This document shows, in pieces, positions 10,120-26,585 of a stretch of 30,523 nt of DNA; position 1 is the stretch's first letter; each line of letters starts with the position of its first letter. Source of the stretch: a virus; the IMG/VR virus record IMGVR_UViG_3300032282_006650, positions 1-30,523 of that record. One strand, given 5' to 3'. The position numbers were made by a program, and so were the translations under genes. The notes beneath the pieces are model-generated. The model was not told where the DNA came from. It did no database searches and worked only from the letters and a program-made list of their open reading frames with translations.

Positions 10120-11650
10120 GGTTCTGATCGCTGAAGAGATTAATCTTAAAAAAATTGGTAGAGAATATGTAGCACTATGCCCATGGCACAATGATAGCAA
10201 TCCATCACTTACGATAAGTGATGATAAAAATATTTGCTTTTGCTTTGCCTGCGGTGGTGGTACAGACGCCATTGCTTTTGTACAACAAAAATTTAGCCTT
10301 TCTTTTGCGGATGCCATTCAAAGAATAGCTACTAATCATGGTATTATCGTTGAATATGACAACCTAGATCCAGAGGAGGCGTTACGACTTGCGGCTGAAC
10401 GGAAACAACTTGTTGATTCTGTAGCGGAAAGTCATCTTAGGTATCGATCAGCACTGCGCAATGAGGTTACTGGGTTCAATGCCCGTCAATGGCTAATTGA
10501 TCGAAATATTGAGCCAGCTACTTCACGTGAATTTGGCATTGGTTGGTCATCATCTGGTTATTTTGCTGGCCGCGTAACGATTCCAGTCTGTGACCATCGT
10601 GGCACTATTGTTGGCTTTACCGGCAGAAAAATTTCTGATGATTCGCAACAAAAATATAAAAATTCTTCATCAAGTCAATTATTTGATAAGGGCGCGCTAT
10701 TGTTTAATGAGCATCGCGCCATGGAGGCAGCCAAGATTGCTGGATCTATTATTTTTGTTGAAGGGCATTTTGATGTAATATCAATGTGGCAACATGGTAT
10801 ACGTAATGTTGTGGCAACACAAGGTACAGCAGGCCCATCAATTGAAAGCATCAGGCGACTGCTAAGGCGTTGTCGACGCTTTATTTTGTGTTACGATGGA
10901 GATGAAGGTGGACAAAAAGCAATTGAGGGTTTTATTAAGGTTGCCGGACCGCTTGCCTGTCAGGGTGAGTTGACGATTACGGTAGCTCAATTACCAAGTG
11001 AATCTGACCCAGATAGCTGCATCAGGAATGGTATTGATTTATTTTCTATTATAGAAAATGCTCCGCAATGGCTCGATTGGCAAATTGATTGCTGGCTTCG
11101 AAATGTAGACCGTACTGATACCCATAGGTTCTCCAAGATAGAAGCGGCAGTAAGGGAACTTGTCGAATCAATTAAATCACCAGCATTACGTCAGTTTTAT
11201 ATCGATAAGGCAGCCAAAGTTCTTGCCGAAGATCCGAAGGCAGCAGCAAAACTTGCGCAAAATTGGAACAAAACGCTTCCAAAGATCAATAACAGCCAGA
11301 AGTGGTCAAAGCCTGTACCATCTTGGGTTAGAAACCAGGTAGAACGTCGTGTTCTTCGATCCTATATTCATTGCCCAGAAACACGTAATCGTTTGCGACC
11401 ATTGATGAATAATCTTGATGGGCCATCTCATATTTGGCTGTGGAATAGGCTTTTAGAATTAGAGCAATATACAAAACTCTTTGATCATGTAATGGTTATG
11501 GCGGTACTCGCTGTATGTGAACCACATTACACCAGGGCACTTCGGTCTATTGTCGTACCAACGATTAAGGTGATCGAGGGAGATGGTATAATGGATCATG
11601 CTGAGAAGGTACTTATCCGTGGAATTGAAACAAATGGGACAACAGGCTGA
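10067..11650 (+). CDS. DnaG-type DNA primase
   Basis: A 527-residue primase synthesising RNA primers. CHC2 zinc finger: CPWH at 38-41 and CFAC at 59-62, followed by GGGTDAIAFVQ. The catalytic middle includes GRVTIPVCDHRGTIVGFTGR. The TOPRIM domain has IIFVEGHFDVISMW with Glu232 and LCYDGDEGG with Asp277/Asp279. The C-terminal 200 residues are helical and lack any helicase motif, so a host or distant helicase must be used. The start at 10067 overlaps the sigma-like gene. Confidence 0.92.
   Translation: MPIKDSTIEKIRQLPISEVLIAEEINLKKIGREYVALCPWHNDSNPSLTISDDKNICFCFACGGGTDAIAFVQQKFSLSFADAIQRIATNHGIIVEYDNLDPEEALRLAAERKQLVDSVAESHLRYRSALRNEVTGFNARQWLIDRNIEPATSREFGIGWSSSGYFAGRVTIPVCDHRGTIVGFTGRKISDDSQQKYKNSSSSQLFDKGALLFNEHRAMEAAKIAGSIIFVEGHFDVISMWQHGIRNVVATQGTAGPSIESIRRLLRRCRRFILCYDGDEGGQKAIEGFIKVAGPLACQGELTITVAQLPSESDPDSCIRNGIDLFSIIENAPQWLDWQIDCWLRNVDRTDTHRFSKIEAAVRELVESIKSPALRQFYIDKAAKVLAEDPKAAAKLAQNWNKTLPKINNSQKWSKPVPSWVRNQVERRVLRSYIHCPETRNRLRPLMNNLDGPSHIWLWNRLLELEQYTKLFDHVMVMAVLAVCEPHYTRALRSIVVPTIKVIEGDGIMDHAEKVLIRGIETNGTTG
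11584..11593 (+). promoter_or_regulatory. Extended -10 promoter TGGTATAATG
   Basis: A perfect TATAAT (11587-11592) with a preceding TGG, inside the primase end and about 41 bases before the glutaredoxin ATG. Identical to the ssb promoter core. Confidence 0.55.
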
Positions 11651-12411: not shown

Positions 12412-12713
12412 TGACTGGTGATCCTGCATTTGGCATTAGCGCAGAGCGATCTGTTCAAGTTTTAATCGAAATGATCGATGACTTTCGTTACGATGAGGCA
12501 TCGGTATTTTTGTTTAATTTAAACAAAAACCATCCCGAAGAATGGGCCTACGTCAAAGATCGGCTCGTTAAAGTGGTGCCACGTTCGCAACTATCGGCGA
12601 TTGCAACCATCATTGATTGCTCTGCTCGTCCTGAGCTTTCTTCTTGTAATGCAGTAATTCCTGGCCTCAGCCAATACACGCATTACGTCGAAGATACAGA
12701 ACTGTTTGATTAA
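12411..12713 (+). CDS. Phage protein, function unknown
   Basis: A 100-residue acidic protein, TAATG-coupled to the previous gene. The N-terminal half looks helical (SAERSVQVLIEMIDDF, EASVFLFNLNKN), with no recognised motif. It lies immediately before the ribonucleotide reductase gene. Confidence 0.6.
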   Translation: MTGDPAFGISAERSVQVLIEMIDDFRYDEASVFLFNLNKNHPEEWAYVKDRLVKVVPRSQLSAIATIIDCSARPELSSCNAVIPGLSQYTHYVEDTELFD

Positions 12714-12756
12714 TTCTGCTGATCTAGGCAGTCTAACTTCACCGTCTTTCATTCTG

Positions 12757-15700
12757 ATGTCTGAATTCCGCGATTCCGCGCCGTCTGCTCCTGCCGTTTT
12801 TTATCGCAGCTATTCGCGTCGCAAGCCTGATGGCACCCGCGAGTCGTTTGCTGATGCCATTACCCGTACGGTGAACGATCTTGCGGATATTGGTAAGCTC
12901 ACCGATGAGCAGCGTGCGCTGTGCCTGGAGATGGGCCTGAAGCAGCATGCATTCCCCAGTGGTCGTGCACTGTGGGTAGCGGGCGCTGATTGGGCGAAGA
13001 AGCCGGAAAACTTTTCTGGCTACTACAATTGTCATGGTGGCGTACTGACCGGCACGCATGTCTTTGGTCGCCTCATGGACCTAGCCATGTGCGGTACGGG
13101 TACTGGCGTGCTGCTTGAAAAGCATCTTGTCGAGAAGCTGCCACCTGTTTGCCGTCATATCGAAGTTGTTGATGTTCTCGAAAACACTGGCGTCAAAGGT
13201 GGTAGTGAAGTTACGACTATTGCAAGGCAGGAAGATGGTGTCTACAGCCTGCAGGTCGGTGATTCGCGTAAGGGGTGGGTTGACGCCTATCAGGCGCTCA
13301 TCGACATCGCTATTCATGGAAGTCATATCGACACTGAATCTGATAAGGTTGAGGTCGTTCTTGATCTGACGCAGGTCCGCCAAAAGGGTCAGCGGCTCAA
13401 GGGCTTTGGTGGTGTTGCGAACCCTGTTAAGCTTGGGGAGGCCCTGCAGCGCGTCGCCAGTGTCCTGAACAGGGCTTTTGGCCGTAAGCTTACTCCTGTT
13501 GAATGTTGTCTTGTTGTTGATGAGGCGGCAAGCGCAGTCGTAGCAGGAAACCTCCGAAGAAGTGCGGGAATCCGCTTGTTCTCCAGTGATGACGAAGAGG
13601 CAAAAACTGCCAAACTTGGTCTGTACAAACAAGACCAAAATGGCAACTGGAGCGTAGATCCGGAGCGCGAATCGCTGCGGCTTGCAAATCATACGATCTG
13701 CTATCACCATAAACCCACCTATGAGGAACTGCTCGCTTCAGTGCGCCAGCAGTTTTATAGCGGAGAAGGTGCCATCCAATTTTCGCCCGAAGCCATTGCA
13801 CGTTCTAATGCTGATCTGATCGATAACGATAGGGTTCGCCGTGATTTCCTGAAAGTCTACACGACTGAAGGCAAGGAAGCTGGACGCGAGTTTCTCAAGA
13901 ATCTTTCTATCAAGAAAGGAATCGAGCATGATGATAAACTGCTTGATCATCGTATTACTCGTTATTCGGCCAATCCCTGCGCTTCGTACGAAAGTCTTTT
14001 GCTTACGGCTGATGGCTACAAGCAAATTGGCGAACTGGATGGGCAAACTGTTGATGTCATTAATTCCGAGGGTGAAGTTTCAACTGGTAAGGTTTGGTGC
14101 AGTGGTATCAAACAACTGAGCAAAATCACTCTTTCGAACTCTGAAAAGTTTCGCTTTACGAGTGATCATGTGTTCATGACGGAAGAAGGGCCTAAGAAAA
14201 TTGGCGAGGCAAAGGGGCTGAAGCTTGTTCCGTTCTTGAAGTATCCTGAGCACGACAAGGAATTTACGTGCCTTGGCTTTATCCAAGGGGACGGTCTCCT
14301 CACCGATGTCGCTAATGATTCCAAGCATGGTATTGGAGTTTATTTTGGCGCTAAGGATGACGATATCCGCAAGCTTTTCTTTGATTACGTCGACGAAGAG
14401 GACGTTGATGGCGATTCTATTGCTGTTTATGTGAGGAGTTTCAGGCAGCAAATTGATGATCTTAAGTTCAAGATTGCAAAAACATACGAAAGGGAGCTTC
14501 CTCTTACTTACGGCGAGTGGTCTAAGTCTCAGAAAGCAGCTTTCCTGTGTGGCCTTTATACGGCCAATGGGTCTGTCGTCAGTCCCTCCAACGCTGGCCG
14601 CGTTACGCTAAAGGCGACCAGCAAAAAGTTGATTGATCAAGTTAAGCAAAGCCTTTGCGATGACTTTGGTATTGAATCGTATGTTACAACGAACAAGCCC
14701 TCTGTTGTTCAGATTTCAAACGGTGTCTATACCTGTAAGCAAAGTTATGACCTGAATATCCAAAAGCATTTAGATCGTTGCAAGTTTTTTAACTCGATCA
14801 ACTTTGCAATTGGCTACAAAACAGAAAGGCTTGCGACTTGTCTTATTAACAAGGCTCCCTATGTACGCAGCGTCAAACCGGACAAAATCGAGCCTGTCTA
14901 TGACTTCTCGGAACCCCTCACGCATTGGGGCGTGATCAACGGATTCGTTGTTCACAACTGCCACGAGATCGTTGGCGATACATTCCAATGTAATCTTGGG
15001 GAAGTTCATCTTAATACGATCAATCCTGGCGACAAAGAAACGCAACATAAGGCGTTCTACTCGACGGGTCTCATGGTGGCCGCATTGCTGCAACACAAGT
15101 TCCCTGACGAAGAACTTCAGTATTCTCGTGAAGTTGATCCAATTGTTGCGGTTTGCCTTAGCGGCTTGTTTGATTTCTTCGTCCAGGCATTTGGCGTCGA
15201 ATGGCTTGATTGGATGGTGAAAGGTCGCAAGACTGGACGTAAGTTCAAGAAGTTTGTAGAGGCCGAACGACGTTATCTTGAATCTTGGCGTGAATCTGCG
15301 CGTCAGGGTGTTGCAGATTACTGTAAGCAAGCAGGGATCAAGATGCCAAACCGCTATACCGCCGTGCAGCCCTCTGGTTCCAAGGCTTTGCTTACCGGAG
15401 CATCTTCTGGCTGGCATCCGCCTAAATCTCAGCGTTTCATTCGTCGCATTACGTTTGGTATTGAAGATCCAATTGTAGCAGCGCTTCGCGACTACGGCTA
15501 CAACGTTGTTCCTGCGCAATCTGCCCGCGACGACGATGGTAACCTGCTGGATGACATCAGTGATCCTCGTGTGCGGGAGGTCTTGGTAGAGATTCCTACC
15601 GAAGTTTCCTGGGCCAACTTGCCTGAAGCTGATCAGTATGATCTGTCCCAGATTCCGGTCAAAAGCCAAATGGGCCTCTATATGCAGGTGCAGCGCCATT

Positions 15701-16065
15701 ATTCGACCCATACGACAAGCGCAACTGTTGAGTTTCGCGAACACGAAATTGAAACGCTTGCGAAGCTTGTGTATGACGAAATTCAAAATGACGGCGGCTA
15801 TATCGGTGTAGCTATGCTTGCCCGCTTCGATGCCAATGCGACCTTCCCTCGCCTGCCGTTTGAGCCGATCGACAAGGTCACCTACGACCGCCTAATGGCC
15901 CAGATCAAGGCCTATCGCGTCACCCTGCCGGAGGACGTGACGATCCTGGACCTGCTCAAGCCCTATGATCGCCCCGATCATGTGTTAGAACCTCAAGACA
16001 CCGCTTGCGCAAACGCAGCGTGCCTTGCTAAGATCGAGCAGGACCAAGCCAAAGGTCTGGTCTGA
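12757..16065 (+). CDS. Class II (B12-dependent) ribonucleotide reductase with intein
   Basis: The precursor of 1102 residues contains a 327-residue intein; the spliced enzyme has 775 residues, close to the monomeric Lactobacillus RTPR (739). Seen: redox Cys92 (YYNCHGG) and MCGTGTGVLLE; after splicing, the catalytic NPCHE with Asn406, thiyl-radical Cys408 and Glu410; the second redox cysteine in QCNLGE (Cys418); PSGSKALLTG near the substrate phosphate; and the C-terminal shuttle pair CANAAC (757/762). It reduces ribonucleotides using adenosylcobalamin, aided by the glutaredoxin. The 5' and 3' ends are richer in GC (about 60%) than the middle. The ATG at 12757 was chosen because the frame upstream overlaps the previous gene. 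Confidence 0.93.
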   Translation: MSEFRDSAPSAPAVFYRSYSRRKPDGTRESFADAITRTVNDLADIGKLTDEQRALCLEMGLKQHAFPSGRALWVAGADWAKKPENFSGYYNCHGGVLTGTHVFGRLMDLAMCGTGTGVLLEKHLVEKLPPVCRHIEVVDVLENTGVKGGSEVTTIARQEDGVYSLQVGDSRKGWVDAYQALIDIAIHGSHIDTESDKVEVVLDLTQVRQKGQRLKGFGGVANPVKLGEALQRVASVLNRAFGRKLTPVECCLVVDEAASAVVAGNLRRSAGIRLFSSDDEEAKTAKLGLYKQDQNGNWSVDPERESLRLANHTICYHHKPTYEELLASVRQQFYSGEGAIQFSPEAIARSNADLIDNDRVRRDFLKVYTTEGKEAGREFLKNLSIKKGIEHDDKLLDHRITRYSANPCASYESLLLTADGYKQIGELDGQTVDVINSEGEVSTGKVWCSGIKQLSKITLSNSEKFRFTSDHVFMTEEGPKKIGEAKGLKLVPFLKYPEHDKEFTCLGFIQGDGLLTDVANDSKHGIGVYFGAKDDDIRKLFFDYVDEEDVDGDSIAVYVRSFRQQIDDLKFKIAKTYERELPLTYGEWSKSQKAAFLCGLYTANGSVVSPSNAGRVTLKATSKKLIDQVKQSLCDDFGIESYVTTNKPSVVQISNGVYTCKQSYDLNIQKHLDRCKFFNSINFAIGYKTERLATCLINKAPYVRSVKPDKIEPVYDFSEPLTHWGVINGFVVHNCHEIVGDTFQCNLGEVHLNTINPGDKETQHKAFYSTGLMVAALLQHKFPDEELQYSREVDPIVAVCLSGLFDFFVQAFGVEWLDWMVKGRKTGRKFKKFVEAERRYLESWRESARQGVADYCKQAGIKMPNRYTAVQPSGSKALLTGASSGWHPPKSQRFIRRITFGIEDPIVAALRDYGYNVVPAQSARDDDGNLLDDISDPRVREVLVEIPTEVSWANLPEADQYDLSQIPVKSQMGLYMQVQRHYSTHTTSATVEFREHEIETLAKLVYDEIQNDGGYIGVAMLARFDANATFPRLPFEPIDKVTYDRLMAQIKAYRVTLPEDVTILDLLKPYDRPDHVLEPQDTACANAACLAKIEQDQAKGLV
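13978..14958 (+). other. Intein with LAGLIDADG endonuclease in the RNR
   Basis: 327 residues starting with Cys1 (ANP before it) and ending in His-Asn, followed by Cys as the +1 extein residue. Splicing blocks: CASYESLLLTADG at the start, TSDHVF (61-66, block B), and VYDFSEPLTHWG...GFVVHN at the end (blocks F and G). Endonuclease motifs: LGFIQGDGL at 99-107 and CGLYTANGSVV at 191-201. In the second motif Asn197 stands where an acidic residue is usual, so cleavage activity may be reduced. Insertion directly before the catalytic cysteine makes enzyme activity depend on splicing. Confidence 0.92.
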
Positions 16066-16078
16066 CGGTTGGTGGCTA

Positions 16079-16088
16079 TGGTAGACTG
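16079..16088 (+). promoter_or_regulatory. Extended -10 promoter TGGTAGACTG
   Basis: TGG plus TAGACT directly abutting the terminator at 16089. Initiation is expected near 16094, in the left arm of that hairpin, 20 bases before the ATG at 16115. Confidence 0.55.
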
Positions 16089-16114
16089 GCGGGGCCTGAC
16101 GGTCCCGCTTTTTT
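16089..16114 (+). terminator. Strong intrinsic terminator after RNR
   Basis: An eight-pair stem GCGGGGCC / GGTCCCGC (one G-U) with a TGAC loop, followed by TTTTTT and then immediately the ATG at 16115. Confidence 0.85.
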
Positions 16115-16390
16115 ATGATCAGCAAAGAAAAGATGGTGGAATGGGGATACACGCTAGATCGCCACATGCACTACGGCCCCAAGACGCAGGCCGCAACGCA
16201 TGCCTTTCAGGTCTGCTTCGCGAGCTACCAGGCCCTGAAGAAGTCCGATTGGAATGCTGCCACATACTGGTCAAACGAGTCGCAAGCAGCCTGGAACAGG
16301 CTGGTAAAATGTCGTCGAGAGGAGACAGGCCATACCCTGTACCTTGACCCAGAACAGTACCAAGAGGCAGTACGTGAGCTCGCTCGTTGA
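16115..16390 (+). CDS. Small protein before dCTP deaminase, function unknown
   Basis: A 91-residue, mostly helical, aromatic-rich protein (HAFQVCFASYQALKKSDW, AATYWSNESQAAWNRLVK). No family recognised. The ATG follows a T6 terminator tail with no ribosome-binding site, implying near-leaderless translation. It overlaps dCTP deaminase by 17 bases, so it may be needed for that gene's coupled translation. Confidence 0.65.
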   Translation: MISKEKMVEWGYTLDRHMHYGPKTQAATHAFQVCFASYQALKKSDWNAATYWSNESQAAWNRLVKCRREETGHTLYLDPEQYQEAVRELAR

Positions 16391-16886
16391 TTGGCAAATC
16401 GAAGAACTGTGCAAGAAGTTTGACCTTGTGTCGCCATACAACGAACTGCAGTTAAACCCAGCATCTTACGATGTGCTGCTTGGCGATAAGATCTTGATCG
16501 AACGACCACCGGTTAATGGCCTCAGGGTTTGGGAGGAGGTCGACATCTTGGAGAAGCCACATCAGTTCGTGCCAGGAGAAATTATTCTCGGTTGCACGAA
16601 TGAAAAGGTAAATATTCCAAATCACCTTGAGGCTGTTTTTTGCCTGAAAAGCAGTCGCGGTCGAGAGGGCTTCGATCATGTCCTTAGCGCATACATTGAT
16701 CCCGGCTTTAGTGGCAGGATTACGTTGGAGTTGCATAATGCTAATAGGTACAACAATCTGAAGCTTTATGCTGGGTTACGCATTGGCCAACTGCGGTTTT
16801 CTACATTAAACGAAAGCCCGCGTAATGCTTATAATGTAACTGGTCGGTATCATTTAGACATGAAGCCGGAACCATCAAAAGGATGA
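16374..16886 (+). CDS. dcd: dCTP deaminase
   Basis: A 170-residue dCTP deaminase making dUTP, the precursor of the ThyX substrate dUMP. Seen: LNPASYDVLLG at 27-37, SSRGREG at 93-99, AYIDPGFSGRITLEL at 106-120 with the catalytic Glu119, and GLRIGQL near 134-140. The GTG at 16374 is preceded by AAGAGG and gives the normal family N-terminus; an in-frame TTG at 16344 would add 10 residues. Confidence 0.9.
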   Translation: MSSLVDWQIEELCKKFDLVSPYNELQLNPASYDVLLGDKILIERPPVNGLRVWEEVDILEKPHQFVPGEIILGCTNEKVNIPNHLEAVFCLKSSRGREGFDHVLSAYIDPGFSGRITLELHNANRYNNLKLYAGLRIGQLRFSTLNESPRNAYNVTGRYHLDMKPEPSKG

Positions 16887-17059
16887 GCACCAGAGATCGT
16901 TTTACGGGGCTGCCGGTAGAAATCTACCGCCGCAGCCCTTTTTGGTACTGGAAGCGTTATATGTCCAGCGATCCCATCAGGCTTGCGCTTGGTGGTAAGC
17001 ACTACGGTGCAGACTTCTGGTTTCATCTAAATCAAGGTTGGTACGACATTCAGCCCTGA
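16883..17059 (+). CDS. Small aromatic-rich protein spanning a terminator
   Basis: A 58-residue protein, ATGA-coupled to dcd (PVEIYRRSPFWYWKRYM, then LALGGKHYGADFWFHLN). Unusually, bases 16906-16943 of this frame form a strong terminator hairpin. The product could therefore start at the later ATG at 16961 (32 residues), or be made only by transcripts reading through. Function unknown. Confidence 0.5.
   Translation: MSTRDRFTGLPVEIYRRSPFWYWKRYMSSDPIRLALGGKHYGADFWFHLNQGWYDIQP
16906..16943 (+). terminator. Long terminator hairpin between dcd and portal
   Basis: GGGCTGC (16907-16913) pairs with GCAGCCC (16932-16938) and CGGTAG (16914-16919) with CTACCG (16924-16929). The loop is AAAT, with a two-base bulge, and TTTTT follows. 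Confidence 0.75.
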
Positions 17060-17105
17060 ACTGGAAACCTAAACTAGGTCGTGTGCGCAGCGACCACAAT
17101 GTGGC

Positions 17106-18554
17106 ATGGAAGTAACACATCCCGTCAACGACGAGTCGTTGGTCAGTTATCATCGACCGGAACTACTGGCATTACTGCCAGGTCTTGACCTTGCATTAGA
17201 TTGCTGGAACCTGCTGGATACGAACGGCAGGGGATCTGAAAAAGGGAAATACTTGCACAAGGAAGTTGGCGAACCAAAAAGTGCTTACGAAGAAAGGCTG
17301 CATCGTTCTACTTATACGCCAATCTTTCGTGATTCGATTAGGGCATATGCTGGCCTGCTAAGCCGTTTCCAAATGGTTGATGTTCCACCGAGCATGCAAT
17401 TAGCGGAACAAAATATTGATATGCAAGGCTCCAGTGTTCATAGCTTTTGGAATAGTTGCGATGAGTTAGCCATCAGGGATGGTGGTGTTTTTATCATGGT
17501 AGATATGCCGCCATCGGATGGCGAGACGAACTACCTAGATGAGATGCGTAACAATCGTACGCCATACAAGATTCAGATCGAACGCAGGGATGTCATCAAT
17601 TGGTCAGTTGAGTACATTAGGGGACGTGAGTTCATTCGGCGCGTAACGGTACGACAATTGCGTTCCAGGCCCGCCGAAAAGGGTTATGGTTCTATCATCG
17701 AACCCGTTTACCTGGTCATGAGGCCTGGCTCCGTAGAAACAGTGAGGCTAGAGAAGCGTGATAATCGCTGGCTGCAGTTCAGCGAAGGCGTGATCCAAAC
17801 ATCTCTGCCAGTGGTTCCGATCCGTTGGTATGGTGCCTCCAGCCCGCGTTTCGCGCAAGGCGACCTGCCGATGAATGGCCTGGCAGAGCTCAGCATTCAG
17901 CACTATCAAATGCGTAGTGACCTGCAGGAGCTACTGCACAAGTGTGCGATGCCGGTACCGGTGCGCAAGGGTGCACCGATTGGTACCAATGGTCGTCCTG
18001 CCCCGCTGGTGATTGGCCCGAACACTGCCGTTGACCTGCAGGACAATGGCGACTTCCAGTTCGCAGAACCCACTGGTCGCAGCCTGGAGCGCCATCAGGC
18101 CGAGATCACGCATGTCGAAGCATTGATGGATCGTTCTGGCCTGAACTTCTTGTATGGCGCAAACATCAAGACTGCAACAGAGGCGTCGCTGCGTGCCTCG
18201 CAGATCTCCAGTCAGGTCAGTTCGCTGATCAGGAATAAGGTCTCGACATTTGCGGGCGTTATGAGGCTCTGGGTAGCATATGCTGGTGAGCTTGCTGCAT
18301 TGACCAGGGAGTCTGGTATTGCAATCAATGATTCTCTGATCAATCGCCCGATCGATCCAAGTGGAATCGCTCAAATGGTTAATCTTTACAATGCTGGTAT
18401 ACTGAGCAAGCGCACTGTTCTCGATGAGTTGGCGAGGGGTCAAATTCTCGACCCCGACCTTAAGATTGATATGGAACTCCAGCGCATTCGGGAAGAGCGT
18501 TTACAAGAACAGTCAGTATCAAGTCAAATTTCTCCACCAGTTCCTCAAGCATAA
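17106..18554 (+). CDS. Portal protein, DUF4055-type
   Basis: A 482-residue portal of the DUF4055 type, forming the head-vertex channel. Seen: YLHKEVGEPKSAYEERL near 50-66, RDSIRAYAGLLSR, EVYIRR-like and VPIRWYGASSPRF segments, then the long helical stem region GLAELSIQHYQMRSDLQELLHKC and TATEASLRASQISSQVSSLI, as in the family. The C-terminal end (RLQEQSVSSQISPPVPQA) resembles a second tail encoded after the GIY-YIG gene at 19291, so the original C-terminus was probably replaced. No head gene follows in this window. Confidence 0.85.
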   Translation: MEVTHPVNDESLVSYHRPELLALLPGLDLALDCWNLLDTNGRGSEKGKYLHKEVGEPKSAYEERLHRSTYTPIFRDSIRAYAGLLSRFQMVDVPPSMQLAEQNIDMQGSSVHSFWNSCDELAIRDGGVFIMVDMPPSDGETNYLDEMRNNRTPYKIQIERRDVINWSVEYIRGREFIRRVTVRQLRSRPAEKGYGSIIEPVYLVMRPGSVETVRLEKRDNRWLQFSEGVIQTSLPVVPIRWYGASSPRFAQGDLPMNGLAELSIQHYQMRSDLQELLHKCAMPVPVRKGAPIGTNGRPAPLVIGPNTAVDLQDNGDFQFAEPTGRSLERHQAEITHVEALMDRSGLNFLYGANIKTATEASLRASQISSQVSSLIRNKVSTFAGVMRLWVAYAGELAALTRESGIAINDSLINRPIDPSGIAQMVNLYNAGILSKRTVLDELARGQILDPDLKIDMELQRIREERLQEQSVSSQISPPVPQA

Positions 18555-18566
18555 GACGGTCATTGT

Positions 18567-19316
18567 ATGTACTACACGTATGCGTATTTACGTGACGACG
18601 GGAGACCCTATTACATTGGCAAGGGTGTAAGGCGGAGGGCCTGGGTTCAAGGCGGCAGGTCGGTGCGAACACCGAAGGATCGCAATAAAATTCTAATACT
18701 AAAGAAGGGCTTAACGGAGGAGCAGGCCATTGACCACGAGAAGTATATGATCTTCGTCTTTGGCCGTCTTGATCTTGGTGCGGGAATTTTGCGCAATTTT
18801 ACGAATGGAGGTGAAGGGACATCTGGTAGGGTCTATAACAAGGAAACCAAAAAGAAGATCAGCACCAGTAGGCGTCTTTTCCTTGAGCGCAATCCTGACT
18901 TCAAGGTGGTCTACTCGGAAGAACGTCTGCTCAAAATGCAAGAGAGGATTTCTGGTAAAAACAACCCGATGTATGGCAGAACGCTATCAGATGAGCACAG
19001 GGCCAAGATTAGTGCCAGTCTTAAAGGGGAAAAGAATGGATTCTACGGAAAGTCGCATAGCGAAGAAACTAAAGCAAAAGTAAGTAAAATGAAGCGTGAC
19101 CTATTCAAAGAAAATCCGGGAGCGCTCCCCTGGGCGAAGACTTATATCTTGACCAGCCCGAACGGCCTTCAATATTGTGTTAGTGGTCGACTAGAGGCTT
19201 TTTGCAAGGAACATCAAATATCGTATAAAGGGATGAGGGCCGCCTTACACCGAAAACCAAACCGATCCTCGTCCGAATGGGTGGAGTATAATGAGACTGG
19301 AAAACCAATCAAATGA
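18567..19316 (+). CDS. GIY-YIG homing endonuclease with NUMOD3 repeats
   Basis: A 249-residue free-standing homing endonuclease. N-terminal GIY-YIG domain: TYAYLRDDGRPYYIGKG at 4-20, a conserved basic RRRAW, and an EKYMIFVFG stretch carrying the catalytic Glu. The DNA-binding part has NUMOD3-like repeats: KKKISTS, GKNNPMYGRTLSDEHRAKIS, GEKNGFYGKSHSEETKAKVS. A C-terminal helix-turn-helix-like module follows (LEAFCKEHQISYKGMRAAL). It begins 12 bases after the portal stop. Its end overlaps a duplicated portal tail, marking it as an insertion in the portal gene's end. Confidence 0.88.
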   Translation: MYYTYAYLRDDGRPYYIGKGVRRRAWVQGGRSVRTPKDRNKILILKKGLTEEQAIDHEKYMIFVFGRLDLGAGILRNFTNGGEGTSGRVYNKETKKKISTSRRLFLERNPDFKVVYSEERLLKMQERISGKNNPMYGRTLSDEHRAKISASLKGEKNGFYGKSHSEETKAKVSKMKRDLFKENPGALPWAKTYILTSPNGLQYCVSGRLEAFCKEHQISYKGMRAALHRKPNRSSSEWVEYNETGKPIK

Positions 19317-19440
19317 CTCCTCCTTGAGTACTCCGCCAATCAGCAATGAACAACCAGAGCCCCAGCAGCCCCAAGTCCAGCCGACAGTCTCGCCAACTGC
19401 CGCGATTCCGAGCACCAAAGGGCAAAATGGTAACCGCTAG
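19291..19440 (+). pseudogene. Displaced portal C-terminal tail
   Basis: A 49-residue reading frame: RLENQSNDSSLSTPPIS, then a Pro/Gln-rich tail (QPEPQQPQVQP). It aligns with the portal's present end: RLxxQS, spaced serines and SxPP occur in the same order. The simplest reading is that this is the original portal tail, cut off when the GIY-YIG gene inserted together with a replacement tail. It has its own ATG, so it might still be translated as a fragment. Confidence 0.55.
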
Positions 19441-19627
19441 GATCGAGTTCAAGCCAGGCTGCGGCAAGGACTTTTGTCCCGGTGCTGAGCAAAACCTGAT
19501 CGAGATGCGTTTTGAGTCGGTCGAGGCCTTGATCTCGACCCTGAAAGATTTTGAAGAATTTATTTATAACTGCACCGCCCAGGTCAATGGTAGGATTATT
19601 GACCTGAGGAACATCTCTGGTAATTGA
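19427..19627 (+). CDS. Small protein, function unknown
   Basis: A 66-residue protein (ARIEFKPGCGKDFCPGAEQNLI, then helical ESVEALISTLKDFEEFIY). I prefer the ATG at 19427, which overlaps the portal-tail stop as in a normal operon. A longer start at 19346 would read the Pro/Gln-rich tail region in a second frame. The stop forms a TTGA overlap with the next gene. Confidence 0.55.
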   Translation: MVTARIEFKPGCGKDFCPGAEQNLIEMRFESVEALISTLKDFEEFIYNCTAQVNGRIIDLRNISGN

Positions 19628-19977
19628 TCCATCCTGCGCCTACTGGCGAATGGTTTCGCTCGCCTGGTGGGGGGTTTGCCTACAAGGTACTTGGCCCGGT
19701 CTGCCGCCTGTATGATCGAGAGGAACTACCGTGGCCAAGTTGCTCGATGGTCTGGCGTGGCAAGCAGCCATCGTGGAACCGTGTGGGCATCCGACTGGTT
19801 CCTGATATGGCAGCAAGCCGCTGTCCAAGCTATACTGTAGAATGCATGGACCAGTGGGGTTGTAGGTGGATTCAAGTCATCACTTTGTATCATCATCGCC
19901 TGTCGAGGCAAGAAAAGCATTGGTGGGTAACGAAAAAACCAGTGGACAAGAGCTATCCATCCCTACCGATGCAATAG
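19624..19977 (+). CDS. Small protein, TTG start, function unknown
   Basis: A 117-residue Trp/Cys-rich, beta-looking protein (GEWFRSPGGGFAYKVLGPVCRLYDRE, SCSMVWRGKQPSWNRVGIRLVP). It starts at a TTG overlapping the previous TGA, the same TTGA arrangement as at 2851 and 2949. Its last 112 bases overlap the next gene, so the tail may be out of use. No family recognised. Confidence 0.45.
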   Translation: MIHPAPTGEWFRSPGGGFAYKVLGPVCRLYDREELPWPSCSMVWRGKQPSWNRVGIRLVPDMAASRCPSYTVECMDQWGCRWIQVITLYHHRLSRQEKHWWVTKKPVDKSYPSLPMQ

Positions 19978-25231: not shown

Positions 25232-25304
25232 GCTCGCGTAGCCCAACGGCAGGAGGCAAGGGAATTAGAATCCCTACAGTGCGCGTTCGAATCGCGTCGC
25301 GAGC
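25232..25304 (+). tRNA. tRNA with anticodon UAG and a short variable loop
   Basis: Cloverleaf seen by eye: acceptor GCTCGCG/CGCGAGC (7 pairs), D-stem GCC/GGC, anticodon stem AGGGA/TCCCT with loop ATTAGAA (anticodon TAG), variable region ACAGT, T-stem GCGCG/CGCGT around TTCGAAT, discriminator A at 25305. UAG reads the Leu codon CUA, but Leu tRNAs normally have a long variable arm and this one has five bases. The amino acid it carries is therefore uncertain. Confidence 0.8.
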
Positions 25305-25305
25305 A

Positions 25306-26424: not shown

Positions 26425-26512
26425 TTTTTGTCAGCGCATTGCACTGTTTGCAATTCTTTTCTATAGAATTGGTCATACTACTGATTCGAACTTCAGTAGT
26501 ATTCCTAATAAC

Positions 26513-26585
26513 ACCCCGACCTGGATTCGAACCAGGGGCACGCGAGGTAGAAACTCGCTGCTCTCATCCACTGAGCTACCGGGGC
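26513..26585 (-). tRNA. tRNA-Arg(UCU)
   Basis: Minus-strand cloverleaf: acceptor GCCCCGG/TCGGGGT (two G-U ends), D-stem GCTC/GAGC, anticodon stem GCGAG/CTCGC with loop TTTCTAC (anticodon TCT), variable GTGCC, T-stem CCTGG/CCAGG around TTCGAAT. It reads AGA, a rare codon in GC-rich hosts. Confidence 0.9.

Follow-up and report, generated by a model that had tools for sequence, protein, structure and literature searches.

Has the portal gene of this virus kept its native end, or has it lost that end to the endonuclease gene that follows it? The question arises in a 30,523-base virus record, analysed as a whole and called the window below, in which the portal ORF, an endonuclease ORF and a Pro/Gln-rich frame follow one another as the first-pass annotation had read them. 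Judging from comparison with related sequences, we propose that a free-standing homing endonuclease of the GIY-YIG/NUMOD3 type has quite probably invaded the portal gene of a cyanophage resembling S-CBS2, at the 3' end of that gene, and cut off the native tail.

The portal ORF spans positions 17106-18554, with its stop codon at 18552-18554; it belongs to Pfam family DUF4055 (PF13264, 3.6e-20) and matches the PHROG 145 portal profile (2.9e-76). The portals of the Synechococcus phages S-CBS2 and S-CRES1/2/3, also DUF4055 proteins, are 63-65% identical to it and have similar neighbors, including orf117-like genes further on. These phages have no endonuclease and a tail contiguous with the portal, whereas the window differs in both respects. 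The host of the window virus is probably a cyanobacterium. Among the relatives, portal tails vary strongly in length, some being short and others long, and are little conserved in sequence; they reach up to 89 residues past LDPD. On these comparisons, they are a rapidly diverging part of the gene. The features of the locus, and two tRNA genes elsewhere in the window, are listed in Table 1.

Table 1. Coordinates of features in the window, with the basis or limits of each assignment.
Feature	Position	Strand	Basis or remark
Portal body (DUF4055; PHROG 145)	17106..18497	+	Homology with relatives extends to ELQRI (about 18488-18497)
Present portal tail RLQEQSVSSQISPPVPQA and stop	18498..18554	+	Foreign origin probable, starting at about 18498-18513
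Free-standing endonuclease, probably GIY-YIG type, with NUMOD3 motifs and a C-terminal DNA-binding module (residues about 190-240)	18567..19316	+	Pfam, PHROG
Right junction zone: end of endonuclease ORF and RLENQSNDSSLSTPPIS	19286..19345	+	From insert or portal; homology to L003 begins only at about 19345
Putative displaced native portal tail (NEQPEPQQPQVQPTVSPTAA...), in the frame of the L003 portal tail, detached from the portal	19345..19440	+	Match to L003 tail
Next gene (MVTARIEF..., unknown function)	19427..19627	+	Directly after portal in relatives
tRNA gene	25232-25305	+	
tRNA gene	26512-26585	-	

The endonuclease ORF starts 12 bases after the portal stop. Two stretches of it match NUMOD3 (PF07460; 74.7 bits, 5.4e-21), a DNA-binding motif of the NUMOD type, and it also matches a PHROG homing endonuclease profile (1.4e-17), the PHROG 314 alignment beginning at residue 1. 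The Pfam GIY-YIG domain gave no match in this protein at E up to 0.1. Residues Y3, Y5, Y7, Y16, G18, G20, R24, E58 and N77 are invariant across 36 endonuclease sequences, and in the predicted structure (mean pLDDT 78, pTM 0.37) four of the five highest-ranking PDB matches by fold are to the UvrC GIY-YIG domain, all of them weak (probability 0.63-0.75, E 0.5-0.84). The gene's own C-terminus is unremarkable, because it ends 11 residues past W238 and related endonucleases with a visible last module end, by eye, about 4 to 14 residues past the conserved W/Y; the best C-terminal alignment to a relative (L041) reaches W238, at about position 19280.

Upstream of 26 of 35 related GIY-YIG endonuclease genes, within 60 bases and at 26-35 bases before the start, stands a TATAAATA box, which we take to be a T4-type late promoter. 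The window gene differs in having no such box and is therefore probably read from the portal message; no RNA structure beyond that of shuffled sequence was found at its start. In the related genes the box is often followed by GCGAACCA...AGAGTAGAA (e.g., L013:839, L016:3001 and L062:2057), likewise missing from the window copy, an arrangement suggesting that the related genes carry a promoter and leader along when they move.

The first-pass annotation held that the endonuclease brought a replacement portal tail and displaced the original, and that portals of relatives without the endonuclease should run in frame into a Pro/Gln-rich tail. Two IMG/VR scans for portal relatives, one scan for the orf117 neighbor and five named phage records yielded 69 other distinct portal 3' regions, with duplicate contigs merged before counting and with L155 and L166 left out for portals cut by the contig end. 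The endonuclease is patchily distributed: none of the 69 regions has it within the portal locus. The closest relative found, L003, has a portal 88% identical to that of the window and is among those without the endonuclease; the search with orf117 returned no relative closer than L003, and the search with the protein of the next gene returned no confirmed relatives. Collinearity of L003 with the window stops at 18488 and resumes at 19427 (matches at 15115-18488 and 19427-19629), the spacing being 938 bases in the window and 76 in L003. Those 76 bases encode DDEQNPEPQPQQPAVPEAAPVAKA and a stop, such that the L003 portal carries an in-frame Pro/Gln-rich tail directly before the same next gene, itself 76.8% identical in DNA over 203 bases with no gaps. 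L003 is the only close empty-site relative found, at about 73-77% DNA identity, and it places the break at 18488-18497; with this uninterrupted reference, both pieces of one gene stand in order on either side of the endonuclease.

The spacing of the locus points the same way. The distance from portal stop to next gene, measurable in 45 of the 69 relatives (the other 24 have no detectable next gene), ranges from -4 to 356 bases and is at most 128 in 44 of the 45, too short for a separate 49-codon gene; in the window it is 872. The contrary arrangement, a portal ending naturally in QISPPVPQA beside a separate 49-codon gene, occurs in 0 of the 69 other portal regions, and a back-translated QISPPVPQA pattern retrieved 0 viral contigs. 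Displacement of the original tail is supported because L003 is as predicted, the contrary arrangement was not seen and the gaps are too short. The other half of the claim, that the present tail came with the endonuclease, is suggested by a foreign codon composition.

That composition belongs to the portal ORF end at 18498-18551, which reads RLQEQSVSSQISPPVPQA. G or C occupies 12, 9 and 1 of its 18 first, second and third codon positions, a coding-like periodicity, and GC3 falls from 0.54 in the portal body to 1/18 in the last 18 codons and 0/13 in the last 13. Under the codon usage of the window, the chance of at most one G or C at the third positions for these residues is P 0.00024, and a GC3 change point lies at 18513 (5/2000 permutations). 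Under a stricter filter (69 rows, the window counted among them), the drop from body to tail is larger in the window than in any other portal (-0.488; next, -0.357), with a mean change of -0.067 (sd 0.141) in relatives. Taken as sequence evidence, this suggests that the last 13-18 codons of the portal are foreign and part of the incoming DNA. Such composition is not unique in the window, because several 18-codon stretches of the primase gene (10130-11339) also have a low GC3 of 1-2 of 18; the other genes examined differ. The endonuclease itself, with a GC3 of 0.52, is portal-like rather than like the left tail, and its relatives average 0.21. Neither a degenerate pattern nor blastn found a donor for the left tail, and no similar gene end was seen by eye upstream of the endonuclease in 35 related loci.

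The alternative that survives best is that RLQEQSVSSQISPPVPQA is native and that the endonuclease simply inserted after it, with the stop lying at the junction and nothing replaced. The stretch RIREERLQEQ is similar to the charged beginnings of tails in relatives (RITEEEQKRLDEQ in L103, for instance), and a longer ancestral tail would fit, since tails of up to 89 residues after LDPD occur. Against this stand the GC3 values and their low probability under window codon usage, and the absence of a match between the left tail and the tails of 21 relatives (0/21; lowest p, 0.07). QSVSSQISPPVPQA may be of either native or foreign origin, and we consider the simple split, with a native present tail, a serious but rather unlikely alternative. 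We also raise, as a doubtful extension of the insertion model, that the endonuclease cassette could carry its own replacement gene end, consisting of 13-18 codons that continue the portal frame and a stop.

On the right side, the frame of 49 codons at 19291-19440 reads MRLENQSNDSSLSTPPISNEQPEPQQPQVQPTVSPTAAIPSTKGQNGNR. It is present as annotated, except that it does not begin after the endonuclease: its first approximately eight codons overlap the last endonuclease codons (19291-19316). From about 19345 onward, its second half matches the L003 portal tail above chance. At the protein level, the score of NEQPEPQQPQVQPTVSPTAA was reached by 0/400 shuffles of the orphan frame and by 19/5000 shuffles of the L003 tail; it is the top score against that tail among 12168 six-frame pieces of the window. 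The match is also specific to the frame that continues the portal (1/2000 shuffles, compared with 805/2000 and 888/2000 for the remaining frames). For DNA, an alignment anchored at the next gene was equalled by 3/3000 shuffles. Without the anchor, one minus-strand place (reverse-complement windows starting at 15041-15101) scores 16.0 versus 15.5 for the orphan frame, and the displaced-tail claim therefore depends on location, frame and protein match taken together. Beyond L003, 20 relatives were compared with the orphan frame; L006 and L101 matched at p < 0.01, L106 and L104 at p < 0.05, and the others did not match. As a protein, the frame has no match among phage records. The putative displaced tail is a short sequence of low complexity. 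Just before the next gene, the L003 tail has the stop TGA where the window has CAA and no stop, and the window frame enters the next gene by 14 bases (19427-19440).

Two further alternatives concern this frame. The portal might always have ended in QISPPVPQA, the 49-codon frame being unrelated and similar to a Pro/Gln-rich tail by composition. Its low complexity, the present portal length of 482 (close to that of L001, L003 and L006) and the one unrelated place that scores as high by DNA are compatible with such an origin; the match to L003 is nonetheless specific in frame and position, immediately before the same next gene, and we consider a chance resemblance improbable. It is quite improbable, too, that the orphan frame uses a start codon of its own and yields a 49-residue peptide that still serves the portal ring in trans. 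There is an ATG at 19291 with a GGTGGAG stretch four bases upstream, and the split NrdA of phage Aeh1, according to the part of PMC2988022 that treats it, stays functional. Set against this, the tail is not conserved among relatives, the stop present in L003 is missing so that the frame runs into the next gene, and no second endonuclease-bearing relative was found for a selection test. Finally, splicing of the portal mRNA around an intron-encoded endonuclease is extremely unlikely and was rejected: the match to TIGR01453 (group I intron endonuclease) is weak, at 47.9 bits with a cut-off of 56, no group I or group II intron was found in the window at the gathering threshold or at E up to 5, which leaves the gene outside any self-splicing intron or intein, and the endonuclease ORF takes up all but about 100 bases of the insert, which leaves too little room for a ribozyme core.

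The displaced-tail reading was originally drawn from a likeness between the two flanks of the endonuclease, described as two versions of the portal C-terminus that share RLxxQS, spaced Ser and PP. That likeness does not hold up as evidence. In protein, 7 of 15 aligned residues agree. In DNA, only 15 of 45 bases are shared, below the mean for random synonymous codons (18.8, sd 2.6; 95.5% of simulations reach at least 15), and the codons for four among these seven matching residues differ at two or three positions. When the first stretch is shuffled, the score is reached in 4/5000 cases against the 17 residues picked by the reader and in 342/5000 against the whole 49-residue frame; for DNA, 350/2000 shuffles equal the score of the local alignment between the flanks. 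RLENQS falls inside the last endonuclease codons. A likeness beyond chance is thus not shown by these sequences. Each flank also carries a copy of an imperfect 15-base repeat (TCAAATNNCTCCNCC). Its reading as a target-site duplication was rejected, because 350/2000 shuffles score as high and its copies lie in different frames.

Returning to insertion as the preferred reading, the sequence of events may be pictured as follows. About 0.85 kb would have entered between the ELQRI(REE) codons (18488-18497) and the NEQPEP codons (19345), neither junction being exact. The portal body would have remained intact while the native Pro/Gln-rich tail was severed and left behind the endonuclease, beside the same downstream gene; the portal frame would now be closed, as its composition suggests, by a short borrowed tail ending 12 bases before the endonuclease start. 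The portal presumably works without its native tail, a loss that would be tolerated because the core is untouched and that tail is highly variable in relatives. Survival of portal function, as the first-pass annotation supposed, is accordingly plausible from the sequence. The endonuclease would be expressed by read-through from the portal transcript and could spread by cutting endonuclease-free relatives at or near the site and being copied in with flanking sequence. Such genes are known to act in this manner: the empty site is cut and then repaired on the template of the copy that has the endonuclease, and the flanks are co-converted (described in part of PMC2988022). Homing at the portal site is inferred from that mechanism.

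Other elements occur in the same sequences. In the window, the gene for a B12-dependent ribonucleotide reductase (12706-16065) contains an intein with a LAGLIDADG domain; L003 seems to be without it, because it has no alignment match over about 13826-15114. In L003, a 402-residue ORF (L003:5736-6944) between the MVTARIEF gene and the orf117 homolog, one gene further down, looks by eye and by its motifs like a TnpB/OrfB transposon protein, which would make it another type of mobile gene within this small region.

The splitting of phage genes by homing endonucleases is already known, and the window would represent a further case, in a portal. In the passages of PMC2988022 that describe them, mobE in nrdA of phage Aeh1 and mobA in gene 60 of phage T4 are free-standing homing endonucleases that split the coding region of an important gene, recognized, as here, by comparison with related phages. 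These are mob (HNH) genes in functionally critical regions whose pieces reassemble, whereas the window gene is probably of the GIY-YIG type and would have cut off a hypervariable tail and left a substitute end. Similarly, the Seg-type free-standing GIY-YIG endonucleases of T4-like phages lie outside introns and adjoin a conserved phage gene; the T4 seg genes sit between genes (same passages of PMC2988022), in contrast to the window gene, which would sit inside a gene end. PMC10448857 deals with homing endonuclease genes close to essential genes of phages; the word portal does not appear in its main text. Titles and opening abstracts found in the literature describe no portal gene cut in this way, which does not prove the absence of one.

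If the insertion reading is right, a seemingly "natural" portal end and an apparently stray frame of 49 codons would be two halves of one event, which is a warning for gene callers, and the contig would hold a second mobile element beside the ribonucleotide reductase intein. If the cassette does carry its own gene end, insertion would swap one disordered tail for another at no price to the virus, and homing endonucleases would have, in a portable 3' gene end, a strategy for entering coding regions. Overall, the locus would indicate that, in an essential structural gene, a dispensable tail can offer a selfish nuclease a way into the coding region.
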